A DNA stretch of 40,482 nt from an uncultured Kiloniellales bacterium. Lineage in GTDB: Bacteria > Pseudomonadota > Alphaproteobacteria > Kiloniellales > JAKSDN01. Under the pieces are notes generated by a model that did no database searches, was not told the origin of the DNA, and saw nothing but the letters and a program-made list of their open reading frames with translations. Positions 32,168 through 37,937 of the stretch are shown here, piece after piece; the first letter of the stretch is position 1; the number at the start of each line of letters is the position of its first letter. A program made the translations under genes and the position numbers. The stretch lies in assembly GCA_947258885.1 (NCBI GenBank), contig CAMYKD010000012.1, positions 1 through 40,482 of the forward strand, given 5' to 3'.

Positions 32168-32560
32168 CTATTCGAGCTCCAGCTCCAGGACATCCAGAGC
32201 GGCGCCCAGGATACCGCGCGAGCGGCCGTTCACCAGCACGTCCTCGAACGCCACCTTGCCGGTCTGCCGGTTGTGCAGCCACTGCAGCAGAACCACCTGC
32301 TTGCGGCCGGACCTGCCGGTCCGCGTCACGGTTGCCTCGACCAGCACGATGCCGCTGTCCTTGCCGTACTTCTCGTCCTGCCTGGCCGACCAAGCAAAGG
32401 TGCCGCGCGCGCCCGCCAGGTCAGTGACGAAGGCCTCGTTGGTCGCCCCGGTGGTCTTGGCCGCCTTGACCGTCTCGATGTCCGACTCGTACTTGGCGCA
32501 GGCCCCCAATACGCCGAGGCCGAGCAGCAATACGAAGGTCCAACGCGGGACAGGGGGCAC
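32168..32560 (-). CDS. Putative lipoprotein between rplT and pheS
   Basis: A 130-residue protein with a lipoprotein signal: MPPVPRW, a hydrophobic core ([14 protein letters not shown]) and C21 as the lipidation site. The mature region, with [29 protein letters not shown] and [26 protein letters not shown], looks like a small beta-rich envelope domain. No family is recognised. It sits 54 nt after rplT and 22 nt before pheS in the same direction, so it is probably carried on the translation operon's transcript. This is not a usual member of that operon. Confidence 0.75.
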
Positions 32561-35954: not shown

Positions 35955-35985
35955 AAGGAAAACGGGGCCTGTCAAGAAGGCCCCG
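35955..35985 (-). terminator. Intrinsic terminator of the ExbB-like cassette
   Basis: On the minus strand CGGGGCC, a 9-nt loop and GGCCCCG are followed by TTTTCCTTCT. It lies 26-56 nt after the last stop of the three-gene cassette and before thrS, so it ends that transcript and separates it from the translation genes. Confidence 0.75.
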
Positions 35986-36010: not shown

Positions 36011-36541
36011 TCAAGTGGCGTCGGACTTCTCCTTGGGCCCCGGCTGCTCGAATATGAAGGGCTTGTCCTTGCCTTTCCGCTTGTCCGGCAGGGGCGGCTG
36101 AGGTGCGGCATAGAAACGCCGCTCGCGCTTGTCCCAGGATCGCTCGAACGGCTGGCTCATGCGCACGCCGTTGCCTTCCGCCTCGGCCGCGCGCTGGGCG
36201 TCCTGGAGCTGTTGGGCCATCTCCTGGTTCCACGGCATGACATAGGCGCGCGGCTCGGCCAGGCCCTCGATGCCCAGCCAGAGGTAAATCGCCTCGTCCT
36301 CCTTCATCCTGGCGCCCAGCACTGTGGCCTCGGCCAGCTCGACGTTGTTCCACTCGATCTCCATCGGCTTGGGCCGGCTGAGCAGGTCGGCCAGGCTGAC
36401 GTAGGCGGCGGGAAGGAAAAGCGCCGTGGTGACCAACGCGGTGACCTTGACCCAGATCTTGCGCGGCGCCCAGATGCTGATCTGCGCGAGGATGGCGGCA
36501 AGGCCGCCGAACACGACGAAAAAGCCTGTCAGATCGTCCAT
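36011..36541 (-). CDS. Membrane protein, third gene of the ExbB/ExbD-like cassette
   Basis: A 176-residue protein with two hydrophobic segments (about 5-22 and 30-50), then a soluble domain containing MEIEWNNVELAEATVLGARMKEDEAIYLWLGIEGL and a Lys/Pro-rich tail (PLPDKRKGKDKPFIFEQPGP). I do not recognise it. The ATG overlaps the previous stop by 1 nt (TGATG), so it is translated with the ExbD-like protein and is probably part of the same complex. It could connect the proton channel to a partner not encoded here. Confidence 0.75.
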   Translation of the reverse strand: MDDLTGFFVVFGGLAAILAQISIWAPRKIWVKVTALVTTALFLPAAYVSLADLLSRPKPMEIEWNNVELAEATVLGARMKEDEAIYLWLGIEGLAEPRAYVMPWNQEMAQQLQDAQRAAEAEGNGVRMSQPFERSWDKRERRFYAAPQPPLPDKRKGKDKPFIFEQPGPKEKSDAT

Positions 36542-37146
36542 CAGGTTTTCTTCCCGGTCCGCAGGGGCCGCGGCAGGTTGTTCACACTACCCCTCACCAG
36601 GCGCCCGGACTTGTCGAGCGCGAAACGGAAAGCCGTCAGCTCCTGGCCTTCCTGCTTGAGCGTAAGCTTGGTCGCCAGAATCTGCTTGGCGGCTTGCTCC
36701 GGCGAGGGCTTGACACTGACCACCACGGTCACCGGCACCGGCAGCTGTCCGGTGAGATCCCGGTAGAGGTGCAGGTTCACCGTGTAATCGCCGCTCGGAA
36801 CGCCACGGCTGTAGGACACCTCATAGTTCAGCCCCGAGAAGTCGGCGTGCAGTCCCAGGTCGTCGCGCAGCAGGTTGAAGACCACGCCGCCCTTGTTCGA
36901 ATAGCCGACCGGAACATCGCCGGGCGCCTCGACCCAAAGATCCACGTCGGTGTTCCGATCGTCCGGCCAGCGAATCTCGACGATGACGTTGCCCGGGCTG
37001 GGCGCTTCTTCCTCGGCCTTTGCGGGCGGATTGAGATGCGGCAGCAGCAGCAGGACGATCGCGATGAAGCCGGCCAGCGCAAGGAAGATGACGTCGCGAA
37101 AAACCGTATCGCTGTCGTCTTCCTCGAGCAGCTCAAGTCCCTCCAT
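36541..37146 (-). CDS. ExbD/TolR-like protein with a beta-rich periplasmic domain
   Basis: A 201-residue single-span protein. Residues 1-17 are cytosolic and acidic, and FRDVIFLALAGFIAIVLLLLP follows. D18 takes the place of the proton-carrying aspartate of ExbD and TolR (their F-x-D-V-x-L pattern). The periplasmic part (about 50-150) is beta-rich: VEIRWPDDRNTDVDLWVEAP, GGVVFNLLRDDLG and YTVNLHLYRD, reminiscent of carbohydrate-binding-like or DUF2135-type domains rather than the usual ExbD fold. ATG at 37146 follows GGAGAAG. A TTG at 37158 is less likely. It overlaps the ExbB-like gene by 14 nt. Confidence 0.78.
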   Translation of the reverse strand: MEGLELLEEDDSDTVFRDVIFLALAGFIAIVLLLLPHLNPPAKAEEEAPSPGNVIVEIRWPDDRNTDVDLWVEAPGDVPVGYSNKGGVVFNLLRDDLGLHADFSGLNYEVSYSRGVPSGDYTVNLHLYRDLTGQLPVPVTVVVSVKPSPEQAAKQILATKLTLKQEGQELTAFRFALDKSGRLVRGSVNNLPRPLRTGKKT

Positions 37147-37891
37147 GGTCTTCTCCAAACTCGACCAGCGCGGTGATCAACTTCACCGTGCCGCCCGCCA
37201 GCAGGCGGTAGTTGACCATGAGCCAGACATTGAGCACCGCCCCGACAAGGGTCGTATAGAGCGCGGTGGAAAGGCCTTCGATGAGGGTCGAGACCATGGG
37301 GGCGATCGACTGGACGTCCGAGGCGCGTTCTGGATCGACACCCGACAGCGCAATGATGAAGCCGACGACCGTCCCGATCAGGCCCAGGAGAACGAGGCTT
37401 CCAGCCGTGTGGCGCACCGCGGCAATCCGTTGCGACAACTTGAGCCGCAGGGTCGACGCGAGGGTCGACCGGCTCTCGACGCCGCGCCCGCGTAGCTTGG
37501 CGATATAGTCGGCGGTCGTGGACGGTACGAGCGGATCGAAGGCCTTGACCTGGTTGAGGTCCCGGCTGGTCTGCCAGACCCTGAGGGTGCAGAACGCCAG
37601 ACCCCCGAGGAACGCCGCCACGATCACGATGGACAGATGGCTTTGGTCGCCCAACACCACCTTGTGGATCCAACCCTGCAGGTAGGTTGCGCCGAGCAAG
37701 GCGAATCCGATCAGGTTGACCAATACGAAGCGCAGCAGCAGCAGGTAGTGATATGGCTTCGCCCGGGCGGAGCGGGTGCGCGCCAGAAGCCAATTGACCC
37801 GCTGATCGTCGTCCTCGGCGGGCGCCCGCGAGCCCACCCGGGACAGGTCTTGCAAGCCGGTTATCAAATCGCTGGTGTGGGTATAGGCCAT
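37133..37891 (-). CDS. MotA/TolQ/ExbB-like proton channel protein
   Basis: A 252-residue protein with the MotA/TolQ/ExbB domain in its C-terminal half. LVLLGLIGTVVGFIIALSGV has the conserved channel threonine context of ExbB (L-G-L-x-G-T-V-x-G), and LSTALYTTLVGAVLNVWLMVNYRL matches the last span. Two further hydrophobic segments lie near 53-72 and 83-101. ATG at 37891 follows AGGAGAAAGGC. It leads the three-gene cassette, and no tonB, tolA, motility or Zorya gene is adjacent. The family is clear but the process it powers is unknown. Confidence 0.82.
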   Translation of the reverse strand: MAYTHTSDLITGLQDLSRVGSRAPAEDDDQRVNWLLARTRSARAKPYHYLLLLRFVLVNLIGFALLGATYLQGWIHKVVLGDQSHLSIVIVAAFLGGLAFCTLRVWQTSRDLNQVKAFDPLVPSTTADYIAKLRGRGVESRSTLASTLRLKLSQRIAAVRHTAGSLVLLGLIGTVVGFIIALSGVDPERASDVQSIAPMVSTLIEGLSTALYTTLVGAVLNVWLMVNYRLLAGGTVKLITALVEFGEDHGGT

Positions 37892-37915: not shown

Positions 37916-37937
37916 AGATAGCCCGGCCCTGCTATCT
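37916..37937. promoter_or_regulatory. Inverted repeat upstream of the ExbB-like cassette
   Basis: AGATAGC and GCTATCT form a perfect 7-bp inverted repeat with an 8-nt centre, 25-46 nt upstream of the ExbB-like start. It may be an operator or a leader hairpin. Further upstream (38052-38094) TACCG/CGGTA motifs recur several times. Confidence 0.4.

Follow-up and report, generated by a model that had tools for sequence, protein, structure and literature searches.

A candidate proton-driven envelope motor encoded by three linked genes in bacteria and phages

Introduction

ExbB-class motors are among the few routes by which the inner-membrane proton gradient is spent on periplasmic work. ExbB–ExbD–TonB and TolQ–TolR–TolA are built from a MotA_ExbB ring protein, a one-span partner with an Asp in the membrane, and a further inner-membrane protein that has its head in the periplasm. 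ZorA–ZorB, from the Zorya system, also combines a MotA-class ring protein with an Asp-bearing partner, and is a presumed envelope sensor of phage attack. A survey published in 2025 in Mol Biol Evol (PMC12204202) put forward vWA proteins as substitutes for the axle of ExbB-class motors.

Here we describe a trio of genes found in a window of 40,482 nucleotides (the whole stretch of DNA that was analysed) from an uncultured Kiloniellales bacterium, and we compare it to these systems.

Layout of the locus

The features of the locus are as follows.

37133..37891, minus strand: gene 1, ExbB/MotA-like channel protein, 252 aa (open reading frame and PF01618 match)
36541..37146, minus strand: gene 2, ExbD-like axle candidate, 201 aa (open reading frame, AlphaFold2 and hhalign)
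36011..36541, minus strand: gene 3, two-span membrane protein, 176 aa (open reading frame and AlphaFold2; no named family)
35963..35985, minus strand: intrinsic-terminator-like hairpin after the trio, ahead of thrS (8-bp stem, 7 G–C, then TTTTCCTTCT)
37916..37937, minus strand: inverted repeat just upstream of gene 1, with perfect arms AGATAGC...GCTATCT

The three reading frames lie on the minus strand and run from 37891 to 36011, the positions given in an earlier note on this DNA, and the overlaps that it gave are exact: 14 nt between genes 1 and 2, and 1 nt between genes 2 and 3. The terminator that it reported corresponds to the terminator-like hairpin, which has a T-rich tail (35985–35963). 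In most bacterial trio loci, genes 1 and 2 likewise overlap by 14 or 8 nt. The inverted repeat is a possible control site, either an operator or an attenuator.

In the window, the trio has housekeeping flanks, with a glycosyltransferase gene upstream and thrS downstream; none of the TonB, TolA, Pal, flagellar or Zorya genes adjoins it, as had been claimed. A 130-aa lipoprotein-like open reading frame is also present in the window (32168–32560), between pheS and rplT, and has no Pfam match.

The three proteins

Judging from its sequence, protein 1 belongs to the MotA/TolQ/ExbB channel family. It matches PF01618 (MotA_ExbB) in Pfam with 34.6 bits (cut-off 22.9, E=1.8e-8), and the profile of its family matches solved chains of PomA (E=2e-7) and also of ZorA, MotA and TolQ. 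Four transmembrane spans are predicted from hydropathy (about 46–75, 77–108, 156–188 and 202–233), and the basic loop between spans two and three (104–166) is predicted to be cytoplasmic, which is the MotA plan. The motifs GLIGTVVGF and ALYTTLVG are present, with Thr motifs in TM3 (GT) and in TM4 (TT). No ExbB or TolQ equivalog model reaches its cut-off (tolQ 15.7 bits vs 221), and the ZorA model gives 21.3 bits for a cut-off of 100; the resemblance of the ZorA models to protein 1 is weak but real (E 1e-6). The description of this protein as an ExbB/TolQ-like channel therefore stands as far as the MotA_ExbB family is concerned, and is refined in that the protein is MotA-like, with four predicted spans, and falls below the cut-offs of the ExbB and TolQ equivalogs.

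The AlphaFold2 model of protein 2 (pLDDT 84.8) consists of one transmembrane helix (11–38) and a beta-sandwich (53–177). D18 is located near the start of this sole transmembrane helix, an arrangement shared with ExbD/TolR, and is kept in 120 of 128 protein 2 sequences, bacterial and viral. Six of the exceptions are probably the Bradyrhizobium-like rows (6/128), a branch in which the Asp is off the aligned position and another Asp is found a few residues earlier; two viral rows have a gap in the D18 column. In the sandwich, W60, D67, D69, D95, G98, E109 and R114 are invariant in 128/128 sequences. In Pfam, nothing matches protein 2 at E<=10, hence no PF02472 (ExbD/TolR) domain and no single-protein match to PF09906, and NCBIfam gives nothing over cut-off, so that the one Asp-bearing helix is its only tie to known axles.

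Profile comparisons indicate that the periplasmic domain of protein 2 is a DUF2135/YfaP-like beta-sandwich. It aligns by hhalign to DUF2135 (PF09906) over 111 columns with a probability of 96.6% (E 6.5e-10), and a separate search with the profile of the protein 2 family retrieved DUF2135 proteins from whole genomes (E 5e-7 to 7e-4). The likeness consists of a W...DxDLW/H start, an acidic stretch and a G-x-Y strand. The DUF2135 proteins compared are larger or stand-alone and have no channel helix, whereas the protein 2 domain sits on one. The earlier note had described an ExbD-like protein that retains D18 and has an atypical beta-rich domain; this is borne out, an ExbD/TolR domain being absent and a DUF2135-like sandwich being found instead. 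The profile comparison that it proposed for this domain is what revealed the DUF2135/YfaP relation, which the note itself did not contain.

In structure comparisons, the top matches of the protein 2 domain are TerD (Z 10.6, 9.4 and 9.0), followed by DUF4425 and Ca-bound beta-sandwiches (2lge, Z 6.2). TerD (tellurite resistance, Ca-binding) and Ca-bound 2lge share the beta-sandwich fold with protein 2, but no sequence relation to TerD is detected, the hhalign probability being 0.3% with a TerD alignment of two proteins only. Protein 2 is 83% identical to that of a family relative in which the identity is 84% for thrS and 74% for pheT; this thrS-like value suggests that gene 2 is under strong constraint.

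Protein 3 was described as a third, two-span protein, and both hydropathy (two hydrophobic spans) and its AlphaFold2 model agree with this: the model (pLDDT 81.6) consists of two helices and a small b-b-b-a-b(-b) domain (71–145). The short loop between the helices, PRKIWVK, should be cytoplasmic according to the charge rule, which would make the OB-like domain periplasmic. Protein 3 has no Pfam, NCBIfam or PADLOC family. Foldseek returned nothing under E 0.02, and a second structural comparison gave Z values of at most 6.4, for eIF5A C-terminal domains; since these structural matches are weak, we use "OB-like" to denote a topology, not a kinship. The alignments used had 44 sequences, and the structure models are single-chain models of proteins 2 and 3.

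Other motor-type gene sets of the same genome

The genome that contains the trio also has TolQRA elsewhere (L025) and two MotAB-like sets. It gives no TonB_C match, and one weak TonB receptor fragment falls under the cut-off. The presence of TolQRA and the absence of TonB_C imply that the trio is not a spare Ton or Tol set.

Several identities were considered and rejected. For this genome, the role of Ton energiser was discarded on the absence of TonB_C and of a receptor over cut-off. The Tol and flagellar identities were discarded given the separate TolQRA and MotAB-like sets, the tolQ score (15.7 bits vs 221) and the fact that TolA, TolB and Pal are unlinked to the trio. A Zorya identity was discarded on the ZorA score (21.3 bits vs 100), on the absence of linked ZorC/D/E, and because PADLOC matches neither protein 2 nor protein 3. 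With no ExbD domain and equivalogs below cut-off, the trio is not a conventional ExbBD or TolQR set either, in agreement with the earlier note, but its manner of working may be similar to theirs.

The same genome harbors another set (L028, 1087–3290) that codes for a MotA_ExbB protein, a 327-aa protein with an N-terminal helix that bears an Asp and a vWA domain, and then an FHA protein. Its predicted domains fit the vWA-type motors proposed in PMC12204202.

The trio in bacteria

Each protein was searched alone in 58 genomes of the same order, so that the linkage of the trio is not built into the search. Gene 2 was found in 21 of the 58 genomes, at 24 places, and gene 3 in the same 21 genomes and at the same 24 places; gene 1 is present in 20 of these 21 genomes, and in the remaining one gene 2 begins at the edge of a contig. 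In a wider set of bacterial loci, 77 of 81 have the complete trio, and three lack gene 1 through contig ends. All three genes are also present in each of 15 further genomes sampled across the phylum (15/15). Overall, about a hundred genome fragments from bacteria and about sixty from viruses carry the linked trio. The trio, whose recurrence the earlier note had proposed to survey, is thus a near-obligate unit, far beyond what is expected by chance.

The only real break of the trio is seen in L104 (1–640), where a serA-like gene immediately precedes gene 2 and gene 3, and gene 1 is absent. Diverged copies of the whole trio coexist in two genomes, three in G040 and two in G027 (loci L030, L031, L040, L041 and L052). 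Trios also occur under the titles Parcubacteria (L095), Nitrospira (L096) and Cryomorphaceae (L120); they sit in proteobacterial or viral branches and are probably misbinned contigs. Like them, L119 (alpha proteobacterium SCGC) groups with proteobacterial or viral trios, and all four are likely misbinned or phage contigs.

The distribution across the order is patchy; in several families, almost every member sampled has the trio. Among the flanks of the bacterial trios, no constant neighbour gene names a substrate and no defence gene recurs; the neighbours that do recur are bound to a lineage (malate synthase, gamma-glutamyltransferase, ABC-F).

The trio in phages

Phages of Rhizobium and Sinorhizobium encode relatives of proteins 2 and 3. 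In Rhizobium phage 16-3, the trio corresponds to p038, p040 and p042, which are annotated without function. Scans of IMG/VR gave 57 viral loci and, with five annotated phages, the set amounts to 62, which include a few near-copies and phage 16-3 itself once more. The trio is complete in 61 of these 62 loci, T4-like phages included, and the last one is cut by the end of the contig. Protein 2 alone as a query retrieved no viral relatives, whereas narrower alignments did; none of the trio proteins has a PHROGs family. This wide carriage by phages was absent from the earlier note.

The ring proteins of phages are very short (about 140 aa), almost devoid of a cytoplasmic domain, and some have Asn in place of the TM3 Thr. 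In two examples, protein 1 scores 26.8 bits against PF01618, which is over the cut-off (L123), or just under it (L125).

Lysozyme and spanin-like genes are found a few kb upstream of the trio in many Rhizobium-type phages. In T4-like phages the trio sits among replication genes, and in marine phages next to such genes. A trypsin-like protease gene is found near the trio in 30 of the 62 viral loci, usually just upstream in Rhizobium-type phages, and bacterial trios do not have it as a recurring neighbour. In L121, L122, L125 and L213, for instance, this protease, predicted to be periplasmic, is encoded upstream of the short ExbB-like gene.

In a quick tree of protein 2, well-supported branches force at least five switches between bacteria and viruses. 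A bacterial-type trio is present on two viral contigs, L154 (3998–5794; T4-like, with a UvsX-like gene) and L153 (3477–5474; tailed phage), so that not all exchange with hosts is ancient. These two cases suggest a fairly recent exchange, in either direction.

A separate motor, and what it may do

We lean, if only slightly, towards the idea that the trio is a proton-driven envelope motor of the MotA/TolQ/ExbB class, separate from the Ton, Tol, flagellar and Zorya motors. This reading is supported by the family of protein 1, by the conservation of D18 (120/128), by the constant linkage, by the constraint on gene 2 and by the periplasmic heads, which are predicted with fair to good confidence; the replacement of axles by vWA proteins proposed in PMC12204202 offers a precedent. 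The earlier proposal of a separate ExbB/ExbD-type set is thus strengthened by the domain and co-occurrence results, since the beta-rich domain is not that of ExbD and the third partner is constant. Several observations speak against a motor: one helix is what ties protein 2 to axles, the Asp is shifted in the Bradyrhizobium-like branch, the phage ring proteins are only about 140 aa long and have Asn in TM3 in some cases, L104 lacks gene 1, and there is no conserved partner gene to indicate what is moved.

The best reading of the analysis would be a 5:2-type assembly whose output head is new and which has a third subunit of its own; we infer the ring/axle assembly, the proton flow, the movement, the docking and the envelope role. 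Protein 1 would form the ring, its pore lined by TM3 and TM4 with their Gly/Thr motifs, and would enclose two copies of protein 2. D18 would be the proton carrier, and an entering proton would turn or shift protein 2, whose DUF2135/YfaP-like sandwich would be the moving periplasmic head; the fixed acidic cluster of this head may bind Ca2+ or a ligand. Protein 3 would dock on the ring by its two helices, roughly at the site of the TonB/TolA helix, and the movement would be received, or gated, by its OB-like head.

In resident bacteria, such a motor may work on the envelope itself (outer membrane or wall), and a phage-borne trio may serve to control the envelope of the infected cell. We favour an envelope role because the predicted heads are periplasmic, cytoplasmic effectors are unlinked, and cells and phages both keep the trio. 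That the motor acts on the cell wall or on a surface polymer, as the earlier note ventured, is a guess. The role is the least certain part of our proposal, and exclusion or defence is the main rival to envelope work.

Along the same lines, we tentatively entertain the possibility that the trio is a phage-encoded ExbB-class motor cassette that acts on or guards the host envelope, for example by excluding other phages, and of which bacteria keep a resident version.

In another hypothesis, which we find rather doubtful, the trio is a sensor or a superinfection-exclusion unit that, by analogy with ZorAB, would detect phage entry or block it: bacteria would use it as an anti-phage defence, and phages to exclude rivals. 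Protein 1 does resemble the ZorA models, if weakly, and ZorA chains are among the solved structures that match its family; both would fit this idea, as would the presence of the whole trio in several kinds of phages, the supported bacterium/virus switches, the bacterial-type trio of two viral contigs, one of them T4-like, and the patchy presence across the order. However, the ZorA tail is missing, neither ZorC/D/E nor a nuclease or helicase is a neighbour, and the flanks are housekeeping genes in the window and show no recurring defence gene elsewhere. Moreover, several families have the trio in almost every member sampled and gene 2 shows thrS-like conservation, unlike what is seen with fast-turnover defence genes.

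It is improbable, in our opinion, that the trio is a gated leak, that is, only a channel for protons or ions that depolarises the membrane upon an envelope signal, with no motion, and that in phages aids lysis or blocks energised entry. The minimal ring proteins of phages, and the lysozyme, spanin-like and trypsin-like protease genes near the Rhizobium-type trios, could be explained in this way, but the T4-like and marine phage trios adjoin replication genes instead, and a plain leak could do without the third protein that every lineage keeps and without a 130-residue sandwich whose acidic residues are invariant. Last, a divergent Ton/Tol energiser for an unlinked TonB or TolA-like protein, or for outer-membrane solute transport, shares the general architecture (ExbBD and a third membrane protein in the position of TonB or TolA), but it is very improbable considering that the genome has TolQRA already and neither TonB_C nor a TonB receptor over cut-off, that the ExbD/TolR domain is absent, and that it is hard to see what a phage would gain from it.

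Significance

The trio looks like a real, unstudied machine kept by bacteria and viruses. No description of it was found in a literature search whose partial coverage makes it weak evidence of novelty, nor, with the same coverage, any paper on DUF2135/YfaP; the paper on phage AP-16-3 does not discuss the trio genes. If the motor reading is correct, the trio adds to the ExbB class a lineage in which the output domain is exchanged and a third subunit is dedicated to the motor, and ties the uncharacterised DUF2135/YfaP domain to a putative membrane motor. The repeated retention of the whole trio by viruses suggests that it is useful in infection. Phage 16-3, which has long been studied in the laboratory and carries the trio (p038/p040/p042), gives a direct handle on its function.

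Comparison with known systems

The trio has the three components of ExbB–ExbD–TonB and TolQ–TolR–TolA: a MotA_ExbB ring protein, a one-span partner with a membrane Asp, and a third protein of the inner membrane whose head is periplasmic. It differs from them in that its ring protein has four predicted spans, the head of the partner is DUF2135-like, and protein 3 has two spans and an OB-like head; receptor, TolB and Pal are unlinked.

With ZorA–ZorB, the trio shares the MotA-class ring protein, the Asp-bearing partner and a link with phage biology. Unlike ZorA–ZorB, it has neither the long cytoplasmic tail of the ring protein, nor a match to the peptidoglycan-binding part of ZorB, nor ZorC/D/E, and it includes a constant extra third protein.

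The vWA-type motor partners (PMC12204202) have in common with protein 2 a swapped output fold on an Asp-bearing helix. The trio is distinguished from these motors by its DUF2135/YfaP-like head, its near-obligate third gene and its carriage by phages.
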